From an uncultured Porphyromonadaceae bacterium (lineage in GTDB: Bacteria > Bacteroidota > Bacteroidia > Bacteroidales > Muribaculaceae), in contig CAMCDS010000004.1 of the NCBI GenBank assembly GCA_945873625.1, forward strand, positions 1-64,000: 64,000 bases of DNA, read 5' to 3'. The translations under genes were made by a program, and so were the position numbers. Positions 5,865 through 28,074 of the stretch are shown one piece after another (position 1 is the stretch's first letter; each line of letters starts with the position of its first letter). The notes under the pieces are model-generated. The model saw only the letters and a program-made list of their open reading frames with translations. It did no database searches and was not told the origin of the DNA.

Positions 5865-7541
5865 TCACTGCGTTGACATTATTTCGGACACTCTTTTCTC
5901 AAAATCCTCGCGTGGGCATATGGCGTTGTTGCGCATCTTCACCCTGTAATTGTAGACAGTGGACACAGAGCGTCGCAGAAATTCCGCGATTCTTGACGAG
6001 TCGGTGATTCCAAGTCTTATCAGCGCGAAAGCCCTCAGTTCATTGGGCATAGTTCCGTCATTGGACAGCCCGGTCTGGCAGTCAGGTTTGAGGAGCTTGT
6101 TGAACTCCTCTATGAAGTCCGGAAAAAGACGCAGGAACGTCTTGTCGAAATTGTCATAGAATTCCAGCAGCTCGGCCGTGTGGTCGCTCTTCCTCAGAAT
6201 CTCCTCCACCCCTTTCAGCCCTTTGGCGCGCGCTGTGGCCTGCAGCTTCCCCCTGAATTTGTCAAGGCTGTCCATATGCACGGCACACTGCCTCATATAC
6301 TGAATCAGATAGGCGGTCTTTACGTTGTCAATCTCCTTCATGCGGGTATATGCAGAGGTAAGCTTGGCGTTGGCCACGCTCAATTGAGAGTTCTTTTCGC
6401 TCAATTGCGAGTTGGCCTCTCTCAGCCACTCCTTCGCATCCTTTGTTCTGGCGTGGCTTTTCATTATCAGGAAGACGGATATGACCAGCAGGACAGACAC
6501 CGCAGACAATATGCAGATCAGAGAAATCCTTATTCTCCGCTCCATCTTCTGATTGGTCTCGTATATCTTCACCACTTCCGACATCATGCCATTGGTCGCC
6601 ACGATGTCTCCCATTATGCCTGCAGCGTTTATGTTGTCGTTGGCGAAATGCATGTATTCATAGGCACGGCCGGAGTCGTATGTGCGGGCAAGAATCAATG
6701 ACAGTTCGCTGAGCGCACGGTATCTGTATGTCGGTATGGTCAGGTCAAGCAGTGATGCCTCGCAAAGGCTTTTTATAGCCTTTGCGGTGTCTCCGGCCTG
6801 CAGCTGGAGCCTGCCCTTGGTAAGATATGCCACTGCCTTGAATCGGGGCGAGCTGTCGTTGGTCTGCAGAAACCGTTCTATGACCCGGATTCCTCTGGAG
6901 GCGTCTCCCTCAGCCTCAGACAGAACCGCCTCCGATATGACCCGTGCCCTGGTTCCCGGAACGGAGACTTTACGTAGACGCCGGAACCACATCTCCGGAT
7001 TTTCGCCGAGCATGTTCTTCCTGAAAATCATAAGCTCATAATAGTGGGGCTTCACCTTGACATTGCCGGTGTCGGGAAACGTCTCCACAAGTGCCTCGAA
7101 CGCATCGGTCTCATGGCCTTTGGTTATATATGCTTTGGCAAGGTTGTAATAGCCGACGGCGCGCCCTATGGTGTCATGCGAATGCTTCACTCTCTTTTTG
7201 GCATACAGGATTGCCGAATCGGCATTGGTGTACAGATATCTTTTGAATAACGCGTCGTAGACTTCACAGACCCCGCGGCTGTCGGCGTCTTCATCAGAGA
7301 GAACGGCAGTCAGCCTCTGTCTTATCGAATCGGTCTGACGGTCATATTCACTTTTCACGTTTCCGAACTGTTCCAGAGCGTTGTCGAGCCTTTCCAATGA
7401 CGCTTCGGTCTCTGAATCCAGATCTTTGTCTGACCGGCAGGATGTCGGCAGTGGCAATAGGCAAATTGACACAATAGCCGTTATGATGACTCTGACCAAT
7501 GTGCGTAGGCTTGTTTCATTATTTAGGCTCAACATAATCAT
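5865..7541 (-). CDS. Membrane-anchored TPR protein with C-terminal HTH (DUF6377-like regulator)
   Basis: About 558 residues. The N-terminus looks like a lipoprotein signal (LPLPTSC, with the Cys about 30 residues in). It is followed by TPR-like alpha-helical repeats (about 45-320), one strong membrane segment (about 336-358, LICILSAVSVLLVISVFLIM), a coiled coil with the short repeat SQLSEKNSQLS, and a C-terminal LuxR/Spo-like helix-turn-helix (IRLGITDSSRIAEFLRRSVSTVYNYRVKMR). This layout matches Bacteroidetes DUF6377-type signal proteins, which have an extracytoplasmic sensor and a cytoplasmic DNA-binding tail. The annotated start at 7541 is almost directly behind the -7 box, so translation may begin at 7535 or at a downstream TTG. 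It lies upstream of the adhesin gene in the same direction and could control it; this is inference. Confidence 0.75.
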   Translation of the reverse strand: MIMLSLNNETSLRTLVRVIITAIVSICLLPLPTSCRSDKDLDSETEASLERLDNALEQFGNVKSEYDRQTDSIRQRLTAVLSDEDADSRGVCEVYDALFKRYLYTNADSAILYAKKRVKHSHDTIGRAVGYYNLAKAYITKGHETDAFEALVETFPDTGNVKVKPHYYELMIFRKNMLGENPEMWFRRLRKVSVPGTRARVISEAVLSEAEGDASRGIRVIERFLQTNDSSPRFKAVAYLTKGRLQLQAGDTAKAIKSLCEASLLDLTIPTYRYRALSELSLILARTYDSGRAYEYMHFANDNINAAGIMGDIVATNGMMSEVVKIYETNQKMERRIRISLICILSAVSVLLVISVFLIMKSHARTKDAKEWLREANSQLSEKNSQLSVANAKLTSAYTRMKEIDNVKTAYLIQYMRQCAVHMDSLDKFRGKLQATARAKGLKGVEEILRKSDHTAELLEFYDNFDKTFLRLFPDFIEEFNKLLKPDCQTGLSNDGTMPNELRAFALIRLGITDSSRIAEFLRRSVSTVYNYRVKMRNNAICPREDFEKRVSEIMSTQ

Positions 7542-7552
7542 ATCGTAAAATG

Positions 7553-7583
7553 CAAAGGTACAAATATATGCACATATACGCAA
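7553..7583 (-). promoter_or_regulatory. Promoter of the TPR-HTH regulator
   Basis: Minus-strand TTG (7581-7583), 20 nt, TACCTTTG (7553-7560): a well-spaced Bacteroidetes promoter. Its -33 end touches the terminator hairpin of the upstream helicase. It leaves almost no leader before the ATG at 7541, suggesting a very short or leaderless transcript. Confidence 0.7.
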
Positions 7584-7622
7584 CACTCGACCCGGGAAAA
7601 TCCGGGTCGAGTGGCTTTTTTC
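7584..7622. terminator. Terminator hairpin after the helicase gene
   Basis: A perfect 12-bp stem (7584-7595 with 7602-7613) has a 6-nt loop. A T6 run follows in the plus direction and an A-run precedes it in the minus direction. It lies directly beyond the helicase stop at 7628 and abuts the next promoter. Confidence 0.65.
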
Positions 7623-7627
7623 AGGCA

Positions 7628-9562
7628 TCAGCCCCAAAGAGGTTGACAGAGACCTGTAGATGACGCGCGGATATCATTCTGCGGCGAGGGTGCAGGAGCA
7701 AGAGCGCGGTCGGAGGCTATCTCGGGGCGCAGTCGCACGCCGAAGAAGTCGGCGTTGCGCAGGGCCGACAGCACCTTCTGCACGTCTTCTTTCTTAACGT
7801 CGAAGAGCGTGTAGCCCGGAAGCAGGTCGATGCGTCCTATCTCGGGCTTGTCGGGGCCGCCGTAGTTGCGGTTCACCATCTCCATGAGGTTGCCGGGGAA
7901 GAATCCGTCGGCCTTGCCTACGTTGAGCATCACGCGCTCATAGCCGGTCTCGGCCGTGCGGCGGTCTTTGTCTTTCTTCTCGCGCGGGGCATCGCCCTCC
8001 TTTTTCTTCTTCTTGCGCGAATCGTCCTCGTTGAGGTCGATGTCGGGCATGTCGCGGTAGTAGGCGAGCAGGCGGTTGAATTCGAGCGAGAGCACGCGTT
8101 TCAGCAGGTCGACGCCGGAGAGCCATTCGAGCTTCTTGCGCACGCCGGGGAGATACTTGGCAATCTCCTCTTCGTTGACCTCGACGCGCTCCAGGCGGTC
8201 GGCGAGGTTATAGAGCTGCTTCTCGATGATATGCTCGGGCGTGGGCACTTTCTTGTACTCGAACGTCTTGCCTATCTTCTTCTCGATGAGGCGCAACTTC
8301 CCTTTCTCGCGCGAATGGATGATAGCCACCGATACACCCGTCTTGTTGGCGCGGCCGGTGCGGCCCGAGCGGTGGGTATAGACGGCCACGTCGTCGGGCA
8401 GGCCGTAGTTCACCACGTGGGTGAGGTCGTCCACGTCAAGGCCCCGGGCAGCCACGTCGGTAGCCACCAGGAGCTGCGTTACGTGGTCGCGGAACTTGCG
8501 CATGGCCAGGTCGCGCTGCTGCTGCGAGAGGTCGCCGTGCAGGCAGTCGGCGTTGTAGCCGTCGTTGATGAGCTTGTCGGCCACCTCCTGCGTCTCCTTG
8601 CGGGTGCGGCAGAAGACGATGCCGTAGATGTTGGGATTATTGTCGGCCACACGCTTGAGTGCGAGATACTTGTCGTGGGCCTTCACCATATAGTAGATGT
8701 GCCTTACGTTTTTGGCGCCCTCGTTTTTCGTGCCGGCCACAAACTCCACGGGGTCGTGCATGAACGTGCGGGCTATCTGGGCTATCTCGGGGGGCATGGT
8801 GGCCGAGAACATGAGCATCTTGCGCTCCTCGGGCACGTGGGTGAGAATCTCCTTGATGTCGTCTACGAAGCCCATGTTGAGCATTTCGTCGGCCTCGTCG
8901 AGAATCACGGTGTTGACCTTGTCGAGCTTCACCTCTCCCCTCTTGATGAGGTCGATGAGGCGGCCGGGCGTGGCCACCACCACCTGCACGCCCCGGCGCA
9001 GGGCGCGTATCTGGCTCTCGATGCTCGACCCGCCGTAGACGGGGATTATCTTCAGCCCGTCGATATACTTGGCGAAGTCGGCCATGTCGCCCATTATCTG
9101 GAGACACAGCTCGCGCGTGGGCGCGATGACGAGCGACTGCGGAGCCACGCGCGATGCGTCGGTGCGCTGCAGCACGGGTATGCCGAAGGCTGCCGTCTTT
9201 CCGGTGCCTGTCTGGGCAAGGCCCACCACGTCGCTGTCCTTGTGGAGGAGATGAGGAATCACCATGCGCTGTATGGGCATGGGCGAGGAGAAGCCGAGTT
9301 CTCTGACGGCCTTCATGATGCGGTCGTCGATGCCGAGTCCGTCGAAGCCGTCGTCGGCCGCCGCATCCCCGGCCTCGGCCACCATCACGGTGGCGTTGCG
9401 GCCGCCATACACGTCGGCCTCCACATCGGCCACGGCGGCAGCCTCGCCGGCGTCGATATGCTGTCCGTTTCCGTCGCCGCCTGTTTCCGGAGTTGTTTCC
9501 GGCGCCGTCGTCCGGCCTACGGAATCATTGTCTGTCTCTTGAGTAATCTCTTTATCTGTCAT
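7628..9562 (-). CDS. deaD: DEAD-box ATP-dependent RNA helicase with DbpA-type RNA-binding tail
   Basis: This 644-residue cytoplasmic RNA helicase unwinds structured RNA during ribosome assembly, translation or cold shock. The sequence shows the Q motif PMPIQ, Walker A AQTGTGKT, PTREL, TPGRL, DEADEM, SAT, the ARGLDVDD motif and HRSGRTGRA. A basic linker (KKKKKEGDAPREKKDK) and a C-terminal DbpA/CsdA-like RNA-binding domain (about residues 545-620, ERVMLNVGKADGFFPGNL) follow. The N-terminal 80 residues are acidic and low-complexity. It is a close paralogue of the partial helicase at 1-595. A leader of about 110 nt follows a TAACTTTG promoter element, which would suit cold-responsive control. The family is certain; the gene name is by domain layout. 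Confidence 0.96.
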   Translation of the reverse strand: MTDKEITQETDNDSVGRTTAPETTPETGGDGNGQHIDAGEAAAVADVEADVYGGRNATVMVAEAGDAAADDGFDGLGIDDRIMKAVRELGFSSPMPIQRMVIPHLLHKDSDVVGLAQTGTGKTAAFGIPVLQRTDASRVAPQSLVIAPTRELCLQIMGDMADFAKYIDGLKIIPVYGGSSIESQIRALRRGVQVVVATPGRLIDLIKRGEVKLDKVNTVILDEADEMLNMGFVDDIKEILTHVPEERKMLMFSATMPPEIAQIARTFMHDPVEFVAGTKNEGAKNVRHIYYMVKAHDKYLALKRVADNNPNIYGIVFCRTRKETQEVADKLINDGYNADCLHGDLSQQQRDLAMRKFRDHVTQLLVATDVAARGLDVDDLTHVVNYGLPDDVAVYTHRSGRTGRANKTGVSVAIIHSREKGKLRLIEKKIGKTFEYKKVPTPEHIIEKQLYNLADRLERVEVNEEEIAKYLPGVRKKLEWLSGVDLLKRVLSLEFNRLLAYYRDMPDIDLNEDDSRKKKKKEGDAPREKKDKDRRTAETGYERVMLNVGKADGFFPGNLMEMVNRNYGGPDKPEIGRIDLLPGYTLFDVKKEDVQKVLSALRNADFFGVRLRPEIASDRALAPAPSPQNDIRASSTGLCQPLWG

Positions 9563-22799: not shown

Positions 22800-23110
22800 A
22801 GGCTACCTCAGCGCGTCGCCAACCTCCGGAGGAGGTACCGCCCGCACCCCGATTCCTCACGAATACGCTGAGGTAAACCAGATACACCCTTCTAAAATTT
22901 TGCATTGTATGCCTTGTTGACCCACTCACGTCGCCAACCTCCGGAGGAGGTTGCATTTTCGATAACCCCGTGTTGGTGAGCCGGCACGGCGAGCCTACGC
23001 GGGGACACAGTCCATAGCACGAGACCGCCTACCTCCGGAGGAGGTTGCATCTGCACGCCGTACGGATGCGGATTCCCGCAAGAAAAAACAGGAGCCGCAT
23101 CACTGCGTCT
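22800..23110. repeat. Cluster of CCTCCGGAGG palindromes
   Basis: Three copies of CCTCCGGAGGAGGT (palindrome cores at 22823, 22938 and 23032) are set in related but degenerate surroundings (GTCGCCAACCTCC.., GGAGGTTGCAT). Between copies 2 and 3 lies a hairpin-like unit (about 22962-23004) related to two units in the 61.7-62.0 kb array. The spacing (115 and 94 bp) and unequal spacers rule out CRISPR. No gene is seen. Confidence 0.7.
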
Positions 23111-23721: not shown

Positions 23722-24534
23722 TCAGGGGCGGCGGATGCCGCGGTCGAGCATGAGACGCTTCACCTGCATGCGGACCACCGTGGGCGTCATGCCGATGAAG
23801 AGGATGGAGAAGCGGTTGAGAAGGCCGTTGATGTATTGCTTCTTCCGGCGGAGCATGCGGTCTACGGCCTTGCGCGCGAAGCGGTCGGGCGTCTGGAGCA
23901 CTCCGATTCGCACGGCAAGCTTCTTGAGCGGCTCGGGAAGGCCGAAGAGGTCGGTGGCGATGCCGCCGGGGCAGGCAACGGTAACGCCGACTCCGGAATC
24001 GCGCATCTCATAATGCAGCGCGCGCGTGAACACGCGTATGTAGGCCTTAGTGGAGGAATACATGGCTATGCCGGGCATGGGCATCCAGCACGACATGGAG
24101 CTCATGTTGAGTATCCATCCGCGCCCCTTGCGCTCCATGCGCGAGGCAAAGCGCAGGCTCAGGTCGGTTACGGCCCGCACGTGGAGCATGATGAAGCGGC
24201 TGATTTTGGCCGGGTCGGTGTCGAGCAGCTTGTCGAACGAGAAGATTCCGGCGTTGTTGACAAGGATGTCGGGGTCGAGTCCCTTTTCGGCGAGGAAGGC
24301 TTCGATGCTGTCGGCGGCATCCTCGGCCGTGAGGTCGAGGAGCATTCCGCAGGTCTCTACCCCGTAGGCGTCGCGCAGCCGGGCACACTCCTCGCGAAGC
24401 TCGCGCTTCTGGATACTCACCATAATTATATCGGCTCCACGGGCGGCCAGCGCGCGGCAGAACTCCAGCCCTATGCCCGACGATCCTCCCGTAACGAGGG
24501 CGGTGAGTCCGTTCAGGTCAGTCTTCGATGCCAT
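23722..24534 (-). CDS. SDR-family oxidoreductase (hydroxysteroid-dehydrogenase-like)
   Basis: A 270-residue classical short-chain dehydrogenase: cofactor loop TGGSSGIG (15-22), NNAG (93-96), catalytic Ser145/146 in NMSSMS, and Tyr159 with Lys163 in YSSTK. It would interconvert an alcohol and a ketone with NAD(P)H. The C-terminus is basic and hydrophobic and may touch the membrane. Its start overlaps the stop of the flavin reductase gene by 17 nt, so it is third in a coupled operon with that gene and the 5-alpha-reductase-like gene. By context a 3-hydroxysteroid dehydrogenase role is attractive. The SDR family is too broad to fix the substrate from sequence. General 3-ketoacyl or sphingoid ketone reduction is an alternative. 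Confidence 0.88.
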   Translation of the reverse strand: MASKTDLNGLTALVTGGSSGIGLEFCRALAARGADIIMVSIQKRELREECARLRDAYGVETCGMLLDLTAEDAADSIEAFLAEKGLDPDILVNNAGIFSFDKLLDTDPAKISRFIMLHVRAVTDLSLRFASRMERKGRGWILNMSSMSCWMPMPGIAMYSSTKAYIRVFTRALHYEMRDSGVGVTVACPGGIATDLFGLPEPLKKLAVRIGVLQTPDRFARKAVDRMLRRKKQYINGLLNRFSILFIGMTPTVVRMQVKRLMLDRGIRRP

Positions 24535-25747
24535 TCCTTCGCTTTATGTCGGCTATTTCCTTCTGAATCCTGCGAGGCAGGCCCGGGCAGTCCTTATGGC
24601 ATCGCATCTCTTTGGAATACATGCGCGCGATGCAATAGTTGACGTGGTCGCAGTCGCATCTGTGGCGAGGGTCTTCGCGCAGGCGGTTGATGAAGTCGGG
24701 CTCGCGGAGCAGCGCGCGCCCCATCTGCACGAACTCAAACCCTTCGTCGAGCACCTTCTCGATACCCTCGCCGTCGACGGCACCGCCGACATATACCAGC
24801 GGCAGCTTCAGCTCCCGGCGGAACAGACGGGCGTCGGGGAGGAAGTAGAGGTCGGAATAAGGCTCGTTCCTGATCATCATGTGTCCGGCCAGGCGCACGC
24901 CGTATTTGAGCCAGAGCTTCTTCATGTAGTATGTCATGGTGTAGATGGGCATCTCGCCACGCATCACGTACATCGGGGCTTTGCTCACGAAGCCGCCCGA
25001 AAGCACGAGCGCGTGGGCGCCGAGGCGTTCGAGCTCGCGTGCCACCTCAAGACACTCCTCTATCTCGAGTCCGCCCTTGAAGCCGTCGCGCATGTTGGTC
25101 TTCACGAGCACGCCCATGTCGGACCCGGCCGCCTTCATCACCTCTTCCATACACATGCGCATGAGAGTCATCCTCCTGTCGAGCGTACCTCCGAAGCGGT
25201 CGCGGCGGTGGTTGGTGTAGGGCGAGAGAAACTGCGAGATGAGGTATCCGTGGCCGGCATGCACCTCCACGCAGTCGAATCCGGCGTCGCGGGCGGTGCG
25301 GACGGCATCGCCGAAGGCTTGCGCTATGTCTTTGAGTTCGTCCTCGCGCAGCCCCCTGACGAACGTCGGGGAATAGAGGTTGAAGCCCGTGCACGCGCCT
25401 ACGGGCATGCACCCGGCAGTGGAGCGGTGGGTCATGTTGCCGCAATGGCCTATCTGTATTGAGGCCTTGGCTCCGGCGGCGTGTATGCCGTCGGTAATCT
25501 CGAGCAGAGGCTTCGTGATTTCAGGCCTTAGCCATATCTGGGTATCGAACGAGAGTGCCGACCGGCATATCCCGGCGTATGCGAGAGTGGTCATGCCTAC
25601 GCCGCCGCGTGCCACGGAGAGGTGATAGTCGCGCAGCATCGGGGTGGGGCCGTTGTTCTTCCCCATTCCCTCGAAGGCCGCAGAGCGGATCGACCGGTTG
25701 CGCAGCTCCACCGGTCCTATTCTGGCGGGAGTAAAAAGTTTCATCAT
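24518..25747 (-). CDS. NADH:flavin oxidoreductase, Old Yellow Enzyme family
   Basis: A 409-residue FMN enzyme that reduces activated C=C bonds. OYE hallmarks: the N-terminal LFTPARIGPVELRNRSIRSA, the catalytic-type pair in QIGHCGNMTHR, EVHAGHGYLISQFLSP followed by NHRRDRFGG, and the C-terminal FMN-phosphate region with GRALLREPDF. It lacks the extra NAD(P)-binding domains of BaiCD/BaiH-type enzymes. It ends in a cysteine cluster (CDCDHVNYC, then C and C in RCHKDC) that may bind an iron-sulphur cluster or metal. It lies 3 nt after the 5-alpha-reductase-like gene. In gut Bacteroidales, homologues next to a 5-alpha-reductase act on 3-oxo-delta4 steroids; that substrate is inferred here. Confidence 0.9.
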   Translation of the reverse strand: MMKLFTPARIGPVELRNRSIRSAAFEGMGKNNGPTPMLRDYHLSVARGGVGMTTLAYAGICRSALSFDTQIWLRPEITKPLLEITDGIHAAGAKASIQIGHCGNMTHRSTAGCMPVGACTGFNLYSPTFVRGLREDELKDIAQAFGDAVRTARDAGFDCVEVHAGHGYLISQFLSPYTNHRRDRFGGTLDRRMTLMRMCMEEVMKAAGSDMGVLVKTNMRDGFKGGLEIEECLEVARELERLGAHALVLSGGFVSKAPMYVMRGEMPIYTMTYYMKKLWLKYGVRLAGHMMIRNEPYSDLYFLPDARLFRRELKLPLVYVGGAVDGEGIEKVLDEGFEFVQMGRALLREPDFINRLREDPRHRCDCDHVNYCIARMYSKEMRCHKDCPGLPRRIQKEIADIKRRNGIED

Positions 25748-25750
25748 CGT

Positions 25751-26530
25751 TCAATAGATATAAGGTATTATGTATTTGCGGCGGAGCGAGGCGTATTCGC
25801 TTCCGAACTCTTCGATGTATCGCTCGTGGATGCGCATCGCGCGGGGCGCGAGGTTGGCGAATGTCCAGAGGGCGAAGACGGCGCCGGGCACGCTCCACGT
25901 CAGTATGGCGAAGCCCACCCATTCGGTAAACTCGCCGAAATAGTTGGCCGAGGTTACGTAGCGGTACATCCCTCCGCGCGGTATGTAGTGGCGCGTGTCG
26001 CCTGGCTTGCGGAGGCGGCGCACTATGCCGTCGCTCTGGATATTGATCCACATCCCGAGGAAGAACACAGCCGTGCCGAGGATGAAGAGCGGACTCGCCA
26101 GCCAGGAGGCGGGATAGCGTCCTTCCGGGGCGAGATAGAATATCCATCCCCCTATCATATAGGCGTTGAGGAGATTGAACACCACCCCCATGGCTATGAT
26201 GGCCAGCGGCATCTTCCCCTTGCCGCGGATGAGGGCGGGGAAAATGAACGAGCGCTGGAAATAATGGAGCAGGAAGAGCGAGACCATGACGGCCGGAGCC
26301 GCCTCGGCCCTGCGCGGACTCAGCAGCCAGAGCATGAGCATGGCGAAGAAGACCGGCGCCTCCATGAGCACCCATCCGGGGCGGTTGCCGACGGCGGGCC
26401 CCCACCGGCGGTTGTACATCATGCCGTAGCCGGCGGTCAGACGCTGCAATGCGATGAAGACGATGACGGCAAGCACCGACATCGCACCGACAATGCTCCA
26501 ATAAATCACGGGGTCGAAAATTCGTTCCAT
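25751..26530 (-). CDS. 3-oxo-5-alpha-steroid 4-dehydrogenase (steroid 5-alpha-reductase) family protein
   Basis: A polytopic inner-membrane protein of 259 residues, the usual length of eukaryotic SRD5A enzymes. The start at 26530 (or 26536) is fixed by the promoter at 26578-26609, which lies inside the longer frame. The C-terminal third matches the family closely: RGGMYRYVTSANYFGE, EWVGFAILTWSVPG, AMRIHERY and a KYIIPYIY end. N-terminal family sites are kept in part: Glu57 in VLMEAPVF and Tyr90 in HYFQRSF. The residue before Glu57 is Met where SRD5A enzymes have Gln, and a later Tyr is Phe97. It should reduce a conjugated C4-C5 double bond with NADPH. A fatty-acyl (TER-like) or other DUF1295 substrate cannot be excluded. 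Confidence 0.85.
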   Translation of the reverse strand: MERIFDPVIYWSIVGAMSVLAVIVFIALQRLTAGYGMMYNRRWGPAVGNRPGWVLMEAPVFFAMLMLWLLSPRRAEAAPAVMVSLFLLHYFQRSFIFPALIRGKGKMPLAIIAMGVVFNLLNAYMIGGWIFYLAPEGRYPASWLASPLFILGTAVFFLGMWINIQSDGIVRRLRKPGDTRHYIPRGGMYRYVTSANYFGEFTEWVGFAILTWSVPGAVFALWTFANLAPRAMRIHERYIEEFGSEYASLRRKYIIPYIY

Positions 26531-26577
26531 TACCATAAGCGGCCTGTCGGCAAGCCGGAGTGGCTTGCTTCGGCTCA

Positions 26578-26609
26578 CAAAAGTAGTAAAAAAGCAAGAT
26601 ACGCACAAA
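26578..26609 (-). promoter_or_regulatory. Promoter of the 5-alpha-reductase-OYE-SDR operon
   Basis: Minus-strand TTTG (26606-26609), 20 nt, TACTTTTG (26578-26585): a full match to the Bacteroidetes pattern. The leader of about 40 nt can form a small hairpin (GCAAGCC with GGCTTGC). It is divergent from the MATE promoter, 46 nt apart. Confidence 0.75.
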
Positions 26610-26655
26610 ACAAATTGTGCTTTTTCCGACACGATTGTCAAAAACAGAACCCCTA

Positions 26656-26706: not shown

Positions 26707-28074
26707 ATGAAAGCCATTAAAGCCATTCCCGACACATACAAGAGCGAATACAGGCAGCTTCTGAGCCTCGGCGCCCCCGTGCTGGTAACGCAGGCGGGCA
26801 TCATAGTGGTGAGCTTCGCCGACACCATGATGGTCGGCGCGCACTCCACCGACGAGCTGGCCGCCGCCGCTTTCGTCAACTCCCTCTTCGTGGTGGCGAC
26901 CGTGATGATGATAGGCTTCGCCGCCGGCATGATACCGCTGGTCGGCGCCCTGTTCGGACGCGGCGACAGCCGCGGACTCGGACGCATGCTCCGCGCCGGC
27001 CTGCAGGTCAACGTGCTCGTGGCCGCCGTCTTCACCCTGCTCATGGCGGGTCTCTACTTCCACCTCGACAAGTTCGGTCAGCCCGAGGAGATAATGCCGC
27101 TCGTGCGCCCCTACTATCTAACCGTGCTCTCGACGCTGCTGCCCATGTCGGTGTTCAACACCTTCCAGCAGACCTCCAACGCCCTCAACTCCACCAAGAT
27201 GCCGATGTGGATAATACTCGGCGCCAACGTGATGAACATCTGCGGCAACTACGTGCTGATATTCGGCCACTTCGGACTTCCGGAGATGGGACTCACCGGA
27301 GCCGGCGTCTCGACGCTCGCGGCCCGCTTATCGGGAGCCGCGGCCATCTCCGTCGTGTTCAGCCGCGGACGCCGCTATGCCCCCTACATGGAGGCCTTCC
27401 GCGGAGCCTGCTATCTGCGCAGCGACCGACGCAAGATATGGACCACATCCTATCCCGTCATGATCCAGAACGGCATCGAATGTGCGCTCTGGACGCTCGG
27501 AGCCGTGGTGTGCGGATGGTTCGGCAAGATTCAGCTTGCGGCCTATCAGGTGGTCAACACCATGTCGCAGCTCGGCTTCATGACCTACATCAGCTTCGGA
27601 GTGGCCACCTCGATACGCGTGGCCAACTTCATGGGTGTCGGCAACTATGCGGGCATCCGCCGCAGCGCCTCGGCCGGTCTCCACATCACCCTGCTGCTGG
27701 CCACCCTCGCCTCGGCCATCTTCATCTTCTTCGGCAAGGGAATCATCGGCCTCTTCACGCCCGACACGCTCGTGATAGCCGTGGCCCACACGCTGATAGT
27801 GCCGCTGGTGCTCTACCAGTATGGCGACGCCGTGCAGCTCACCTACGCCAACGCCCTGCGCGGCACCGGCTTCGTGCAGCCGCTGCTGTGGGTGGCGATA
27901 GCGGCCTATATCGTCGTCGGCGTGCCCTCGATGCTCTTCCTGGCCGACACGCTCGGCCTTGAGGGAGTACGCGTCTACTATAGTTTCTCGGCCGCCCTGA
28001 TAGTGGCCTCGGTGCTCCTCTGGCTGTCGTTCAGGCGTGCCGTGGCGCGCAGCGAAAGCCTCCGCGAAGGGTAA
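26707..28074 (+). CDS. MATE-family multidrug/organic-cation efflux transporter
   Basis: A 455-residue inner-membrane protein with about twelve hydrophobic segments. MATE features are GAPVLVTQAGIIVVSFADTMMVG near the N-terminus and the related second half (QNGIECALWTLGAVVCGWFG). It exports cationic or lipophilic compounds by Na+ or H+ antiport. It is divergent from the steroid-reductase-like operon, with promoters 46 nt apart, which allows shared control. Export of products of that operon is possible but only inferred. Confidence 0.92.
   Translation: MKAIKAIPDTYKSEYRQLLSLGAPVLVTQAGIIVVSFADTMMVGAHSTDELAAAAFVNSLFVVATVMMIGFAAGMIPLVGALFGRGDSRGLGRMLRAGLQVNVLVAAVFTLLMAGLYFHLDKFGQPEEIMPLVRPYYLTVLSTLLPMSVFNTFQQTSNALNSTKMPMWIILGANVMNICGNYVLIFGHFGLPEMGLTGAGVSTLAARLSGAAAISVVFSRGRRYAPYMEAFRGACYLRSDRRKIWTTSYPVMIQNGIECALWTLGAVVCGWFGKIQLAAYQVVNTMSQLGFMTYISFGVATSIRVANFMGVGNYAGIRRSASAGLHITLLLATLASAIFIFFGKGIIGLFTPDTLVIAVAHTLIVPLVLYQYGDAVQLTYANALRGTGFVQPLLWVAIAAYIVVGVPSMLFLADTLGLEGVRVYYSFSAALIVASVLLWLSFRRAVARSESLREG

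Follow-up and report, generated by a model that had tools for sequence, protein, structure and literature searches.

A conserved three-gene operon of Muribaculaceae with a probable role in steroid A-ring chemistry

Do three adjacent redox genes in an uncultured Porphyromonadaceae bacterium (assigned by GTDB to Muribaculaceae) act together on the A-ring of steroids, and if so, on bile acids, on hormones, or on both? The genes lie on the minus strand of the window, by which we mean the whole 64,000-nucleotide stretch analysed (positions 1 to 64,000 of contig CAMCDS010000004.1, assembly GCA_945873625.1), and encode a steroid 5-alpha-reductase family protein (5AR), an Old Yellow Enzyme type flavin oxidoreductase (OYE), and a short-chain dehydrogenase/reductase (SDR) of what we call type A (SDR-A). 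A sequence-only reading had proposed a steroid or bile-acid operon here, similar to gene sets of other gut Bacteroidales and differing from them in a few residues. We consider it probable that the operon acts in steroid A-ring chemistry, with bile acids and hormones both candidate substrates. Muribaculaceae have been described as dominant in the mouse gut (PMC6381624; this and the other papers cited by accession were available in part, and the statements drawn from them have that scope). If the assignment is true, the capacity to form flat (allo) bile acids or to inactivate steroid hormones extends to a sizeable and poorly studied fraction of the gut community.

The operon and its distribution

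The three genes form a tightly coupled operon: the OYE start follows the 5AR stop after a gap of 3 nt, OYE and SDR-A overlap by 17 nt, and the first base of the promoter lies 79 nt ahead of the 5AR ATG (Table 1). The gap, the overlap and the promoter agree with the sequence-only reading, as do the three enzyme classes, which Pfam confirmed, with 151.6 bits for 5AR against Steroid_dh (curated cut-off 22.6) and 151.9 bits for OYE against Oxidored_FMN (curated cut-off 27). That reading had also proposed a comparison of gene order, for which we used named-record loci from the best 80 of 580 relatives, mostly metagenome-assembled genomes (MAGs) titled Muribaculaceae, Porphyromonadaceae, Bacteroides sp. 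or Bacteroidales. In the 76 of these 80 loci with at least 2.4 kb downstream, OYE lies within 700 nt past 5AR in 69 (in L127 in two pieces), and the full order 5AR-OYE-SDR-A is present in 61; seven have no OYE within 700 nt, and one of them, L103, has one 1.9 kb on. This arrangement is conserved far beyond chance. A gut source (deer, goat, sheep, cattle or horse) is given in some record titles among the same best 80; in most, no source is given.

Within the genus of the window, 5AR was found in 31 of 36 relatives (own genome not counted). Among the 22 searched with both proteins, 5AR and OYE occur together in 20 (in G002 the OYE is split over contigs) and are both absent in two, whose completeness is 97% and 60%; an SDR-A ortholog with at least 57% identity is present in 19 and was not found in G002, G017 and G019. 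Across the order, 91 of 295 Bacteroidales genomes have a 5AR match at E 0.001 and 70 have one below 1e-30 (own included), the best match being at least 50% identical in 40 of these 70 and 35–45% identical in the remaining 30. A phylum-wide draw of 247 genomes (own included) gave a clear 5AR match in three of the 246 others (L170-L172, 39–41% identity), with at least two of those 246 also belonging to Bacteroidales. Neither an OYE nor an SDR match was found in the ~1.5 kb on either side of 5AR in L170-L172. Likewise, no OYE match accompanies the distant Bacteroidales 5ARs in any of the 24 loci fetched from the 30 such genomes (22 of these have 3 kb or more downstream); a weak SDR match (26%) occurs in L166.

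A tree of 145 distinct 5AR sequences (four with too little downstream sequence were left out) was built by a quick method, with a midpoint root for drawing only and one long branch (L136). In it, a fully supported branch parts 22 distant stand-alone forms from 123 others, 109 of which have an OYE within 2 kb and 14 of which do not, and the operon therefore belongs to one 5AR clade. Within that clade the operon has several times been lost or broken up, or else has been gained on more than one occasion; the tree calls for at least six changes in operon state, two of them forced by well-supported branches. Six loci (L093, L096, L101, L102, L104 and L122) form a well-supported 5AR group, 62–70% identical to that of the window, with no OYE or SDR match within ~5 kb downstream. 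Several loci carry additional genes. In L068, from the nearest relative by 5AR (G029), a DUF1016/YhcG PDDEXK nuclease gene (7061-8146) stands between OYE and SDR, and its first seven residues are those that start the SDR of the window (MASKTDL), as if insertion of the gene there had duplicated a short stretch of the SDR start. In two loci of one genus the added open reading frames (ORFs) are unrelated: in L151 (5897-6682) OYE and SDR are separated by a HARE-HTH domain protein, and in L152 (3249-3638) 5AR and OYE are separated by a 129-aa ORF. A Bacteroidales-type copy of the operon (5AR 70%) is also present in L080, titled Pseudoflavonifractor sp., which is probably a mislabelled or mixed MAG.

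It is very improbable that the three genes are a loose redox neighbourhood serving no single pathway, with the OYE as a detoxifying ene-reductase. OYEs are often broad ene-reductases, Parabacteroides distasonis carries OYE and SDR without an adjacent 5AR, and some 5ARs of the clade stand alone, all of which would suit such a neighbourhood; against it, order and strand are conserved in the 61 loci given above, two of the window's genes overlap, and OYE sequences are well conserved across their clade (mean column identity 66%, 54 sequences). The pairwise identities of 5AR and OYE also correlate (rho 0.62, 92 loci), a correlation that shared ancestry alone can give too.

Catalytic residues of the 5AR and the OYE

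The sequence-only reading had suggested a protein search, with acyl-lipid enzymes as the outcome that would count against steroids. In phmmer the closest characterised relatives of the 5AR are steroid reductases, namely the bacterial PbSRD5A (7c83, 1.1e-50) and human SRD5A2 (7bw1, 2e-40), against 3e-8 for the enoyl-CoA reductase art-1. Enoyl-CoA and polyprenol reductases also belong to the 5AR fold family. This breadth, together with the weak art-1 match, would fit an operon that reduces an endogenous lipid or isoprenoid (an enone lipid, a very-long-chain acyl or a polyprenyl chain) rather than host steroids, as would the distant 5ARs without OYE and the best NCBIfam model of SDR-A, a mycolate reductase, which scores 132.8 bits, far under its 380-bit cut-off. 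We consider this explanation improbable, given that the 5AR is much nearer in sequence to SRD5A2 and PbSRD5A than to art-1, that the patchiness of 5AR and OYE within the genus would be odd for a core lipid step, and that the phenotype of a 5AR knock-out in Parabacteroides merdae concerns bile acids (PMC10382948).

SRD5A2 uses Q56, E57 and Y91, and Q56A/L leads to loss of activity (PMC7815742). When tested for this Gln-Glu-Tyr (QEY) signature, the 5AR of the window failed at Gln, where it has Met (position 56), and kept Glu57 and Tyr90; Phe stands at position 97. Seven of the eight SRD5A2 contacts to NADPH (N160, D164, R171, N193, E197, R227, H231, Y235) are identical in it. At the position of H231, 129 of 168 related loci have Ile or Leu and 21 have His, as have all three 5ARs from outside the order. 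The residues are thus as the sequence-only reading gave them, including the C-terminal cysteine cluster of the OYE, which that reading had grouped with Met56 and Phe97 as differences particular to the window. This second part did not hold. Met56 is present in 149 of 149 distinct order-level 5ARs that cover the site (one of 150 is gapped there) and in the three from outside Bacteroidales; Phe97 is present in 141 of 144 covering loci with the 24 distant ones set aside (157 of 168 overall), and PbSRD5A has Phe too; the three core cysteines of the cluster are present in 101 of 101 distinct OYEs; and Phocaeicola massiliensis has all three features. Because they are clade-wide, the suggestion that the substrates may differ on their account is unsupported. 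The protein is best described as SRD5A-like, of a putative MEY subtype, and the fixed Met56 could serve as a natural experiment on the QEY mechanism derived from SRD5A. Met56 was also considered as a marker of the operon and rejected, since Met is found as well in all 24 fetched distant, OYE-less Bacteroidales 5ARs and in the three outside the order.

For the OYE, H163, H166 and Y168 form the pattern H-x-x-H-x-Y, which we take to be the substrate-binding motif of the family, and they are kept in 100 of 101 distinct OYEs (the remaining one has X). Toward the C-terminus are the cysteines C364, C366, C372, C383 and C387, with the motif C366-x-H-x-N-Y-C372-x10-C383; C366, C372 and C383 are invariant in the 101 distinct OYEs (own included) and H368 is present in 98. 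Where the second cluster cysteine would stand, the clade has Val, Ser, Thr, Lys, Ala or another residue. A test for the four cysteines of a BaiCD/KSTD1-like [4Fe-4S] cluster, predicted in KSTD1 to be C375, C378, C381 and C393 (PMC8044976), therefore failed, with three of four present, and the arrangement resembles a pared-down version of the [4Fe-4S] motif found in related flavoenzymes. The OYEs of P. massiliensis and P. distasonis have the same three-cysteine form and C102. Among relatives with 36–42% identity, all four cysteines occur in those of Nocardia, Tsukamurella, two Sphingobium, Novosphingobium and Burkholderia, and three in that of Rhodococcus jostii. Of the 101 distinct OYEs, 100 have C102 and one has X there. 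C102 was considered as a replacement ligand for the absent second cysteine, on the basis that the Nocardia, Tsukamurella and Sphingobium TomTYG65 relatives combine Ala102 with four cysteines, and was ruled out, as Cys102 and all four motif cysteines occur together in 18 of 18 sequences (L185-L202). The OYE also fell short of the NCBIfam equivalog cut-off for BaiCD (154.9 vs 825 bits, matching the N-terminal part only).

Substrates, the SDR slot and the setting of the locus

On one hand, several lines of evidence were counted for steroid A-ring chemistry. The 5AR is nearest the steroid branch and retains both E57 and Y90 along with seven of the eight NADPH contacts; a cluster of the same classes in P. 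merdae has a 5AR disruption phenotype (PMC10382948); P. massiliensis has a 5AR-OYE pair and P. distasonis an OYE-SDR pair; and OYE-type enzymes acting on 3-keto-5beta-bile salts have been characterised (PMC8044976). To these we add the joint presence (20) and joint absence (2) of 5AR and OYE in 22 relatives, and the concentration of 5AR in Bacteroidales (70/295 vs 3/246). Gene content, coupling, most catalytic residues, co-occurrence and the conserved operon were observed directly, and analogy with relatives suggests 3-oxo-delta4-steroids as substrates. The module would then be cytosolic and inner-membrane, and would act on 3-oxo steroids acquired in the gut, rearranging their A-ring: the OYE would interconvert 3-oxo-5beta and 3-oxo-delta4 steroids, the membrane 5AR would use NADPH to turn the delta4 double bond into the flat 5alpha form, and SDR-A would reduce or oxidise the C3 oxygen (3-oxo to 3-hydroxy). 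Secondary bile acids and/or steroid hormones are the likely substrates.

On the other hand, several points weigh against this assignment. The Gln of the QEY motif is Met, at a site where Q56A/L abolishes activity in the human enzyme, and the NADPH contact H231 is Ile. The SDR slot differs in type between the window and P. massiliensis (27% identity). Two homologues, 46% and 62% identical, of a characterised OYE-type bile-salt enzyme are described as lacking its activity (PMC8044976), and OYE family membership alone counts for little for that reason. The characterised P. merdae, Odoribacter and P. dorei enzymes enter the comparison without protein sequences. One further supporting line is that a protein of the CBAH family (choloylglycine hydrolase, the bile salt hydrolase type) is encoded in the window's genome (G000:C3:82518-83384) and in 22 of 22 same-genus relatives; because the family is also matched in four of the 14 controls (B. 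subtilis, Synechococcus elongatus, Lactococcus lactis and Methanosarcina acetivorans) and in both relatives without 5AR, this evidence is weak as well. As a whole, the steroid or bile-acid interpretation of the sequence-only reading stands in its enzyme classes, its operon and its comparison with known clusters, and is unsupported in the substrate difference it drew from three residue features.

It is possible, though on balance we doubt it, that the operon's substrates are steroids of another kind (progesterone, testosterone, corticoids, or plant or animal sterol derivatives) and that bile acids are converted on the side or not at all. PbSRD5A, the closest solved bacterial relative, responded mainly to progesterone (PMC7815742), while the genetically tested gut Bacteroidales cluster acts on 3-oxo-delta4-lithocholic acid (3-oxo-delta4-LCA; PMC10382948).

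Which stereoisomer a steroid A-ring operon would make may depend on its SDR. SDR-A satisfies what we take to be the classical SDR motifs, TGxxxGxG (TGGSSGIG, T15-G22) and S-YxxxK (S146, Y159, K163), and the latter three residues are kept in 64 of 64 aligned relatives. The P. distasonis SDR is 38% identical to it, and the P. massiliensis SDR is of a different type. This second, unrelated type (SDR-B) is often carried by the operon in relatives. An ORF-level count over 113 loci with at least 2.3 kb downstream gave OYE-A in 33, OYE-A-B in 25, A alone in 6, OYE alone in 6, A-B in 3, OYE-B in 3, OYE-B-A in 1, OYE-A-A in 1, B in 1 and none in 34, where some of the rows without OYE have an OYE frame that starts upstream of the cut (for instance L050, L051 and L053). 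Heminiphilus faecis (L085) is of the four-gene form 5AR-OYE-SDR-A-SDR-B, as is Barnesiella sp. An22 (L121). Of 22 relatives in the window's genus, three have a clear SDR-B ortholog (G015, G022, and G021, the source of the query), and none was found in the window's own genome, where the best match is SDR-A itself (2.1e-6).

Putative labels of 5beta-reductase (5BR) for the OYE and 3beta-hydroxysteroid dehydrogenase (3beta-HSDH) for SDR-A are plausible, yet the latter cannot simply be transferred because the P. massiliensis locus has only SDR-B. That SDR-A and SDR-B are 3beta- and 3alpha-specific, respectively, is a guess. As a tentative extension, which we regard as rather unlikely, many gut Bacteroidales might possess a four-enzyme module (5AR-OYE-SDR-A-SDR-B) whose unrelated SDRs handle the 3alpha and 3beta hydroxyl, so that a bent 3alpha-hydroxy-5beta bile acid becomes a flat 3beta-hydroxy-5alpha one in one cell; lineages with a single SDR (SDR-A only in the window, SDR-B only in the P. 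massiliensis locus) would make different stereoisomers, and the 5AR would be a distinct subtype working with Met for Gln. The two-SDR pattern, which amounts to a genomic prediction of the stereoisomer made by each lineage, is a more useful lead than the window-specific differences proposed earlier.

As for the setting of the operon, 34 of the 161 related loci have the promoter pattern TTTG-N18-22-TAnnTTTG within 200 nt upstream of 5AR (against an expectation of 0.5 by mononucleotide shuffling), and it is not found in full in the other 127; the -7 element alone was found in 80 of 161 (14.7 expected from the same kind of shuffles). Some genomes are present twice in these counts, via two collections. 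A MATE transporter gene starts divergently on the plus strand at 26707. Downstream are ~1 kb without an assigned gene, then genes for a DUF4836 protein, an ABC transporter ATPase and an FtsX-like permease; none of the six neighbouring proteins scanned pointed to steroids. In the downstream stretch (22800-23060), a near-palindromic motif around cctccggaggaggt was seen by eye three times.

Table 1. Positions of the operon genes and promoter in the window
Feature	Positions	Strand	Evidence
5AR (steroid 5-alpha-reductase family membrane protein, 259 aa, M56-E57...Y90)	25751-26530	minus	Pfam PF02544 Steroid_dh 2.1e-44
OYE (Old Yellow Enzyme type flavin oxidoreductase, 409 aa)	24518-25747	minus	Pfam PF00724 Oxidored_FMN 3.5e-44
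SDR-A (short-chain dehydrogenase/reductase, type A, 270 aa)	23722-24534	minus	Pfam PF00106 adh_short 9e-39
Bacteroidetes-type promoter TTTG-N20-TACTTTTG	26578-26609	minus	sequence pattern

Comparison with known steroid and bile-acid systems

Among the papers listed by a literature search, with most subscription papers outside its scope, there was no primary paper on this operon in Muribaculaceae and no assay of it; such work may exist. Solved structures offer one comparison: PbSRD5A and SRD5A2 have in common with the window's 5AR the catalytic Glu and Tyr and the seven NADPH contacts, and differ from it in the Gln of QEY (Met here) and at H231 (Ile here). BaiCD, BaiH, CasH and 5beta-delta4-KSTD1 belong, like the window's OYE, to the Old Yellow Enzyme family and resemble it in a C-terminal cysteine motif (that of KSTD1 in PMC8044976), whereas the OYE is a single 409-aa protein compared with 642 positions in the BaiCD model and ~75 kDa for KSTD1 (PMC8044976). 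It is enzymes of this type that have been characterised as adding or removing the delta4 bond of 3-keto-5beta-bile salts (PMC8044976).

Two Bacteroidales loci offer a further comparison. In P. massiliensis (OY726067.1), a 5AR (60%) that has M56 adjoins an OYE (67%), and SDR-B takes the place of SDR-A. In P. distasonis (NZ_OY725754.1), an OYE (63%) adjoins an SDR-A-type SDR (38%), with no 5AR in that record. This fits PMC6069880, which describes 5AR in Bacteroidetes isolates from chicken, the exceptions being P. distasonis and two Odoribacter isolates. The record itself (L179) is called a plasmid and has ribosomal protein L25 and pth beside the OYE-SDR pair; it is probably a piece of chromosome.

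There is also P. merdae, where the 5AR gene lies in one cluster with genes for an NADH:flavin oxidoreductase and a predicted 3beta-HSDH, and where disruption of 5AR stopped the production of alloLCA derivatives (PMC10382948, reviewing Sato et al. 2021). An indirect route with 3alpha-HSDH, 5BR, 5AR and 3beta-HSDH has been described (PMC9645264). The likeness to gut Bacteroidales clusters claimed by the sequence-only reading is borne out at this level: by description, the same three enzyme classes are clustered in bacteria of the same taxonomic order, and the window passes a test of composition for the Bacteroidales isoallo-bile-acid cluster (5AR, a flavin oxidoreductase and an HSDH-type SDR). 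The operon is a further member of a kind of gene set already known from other gut Bacteroidales, with some informative differences.

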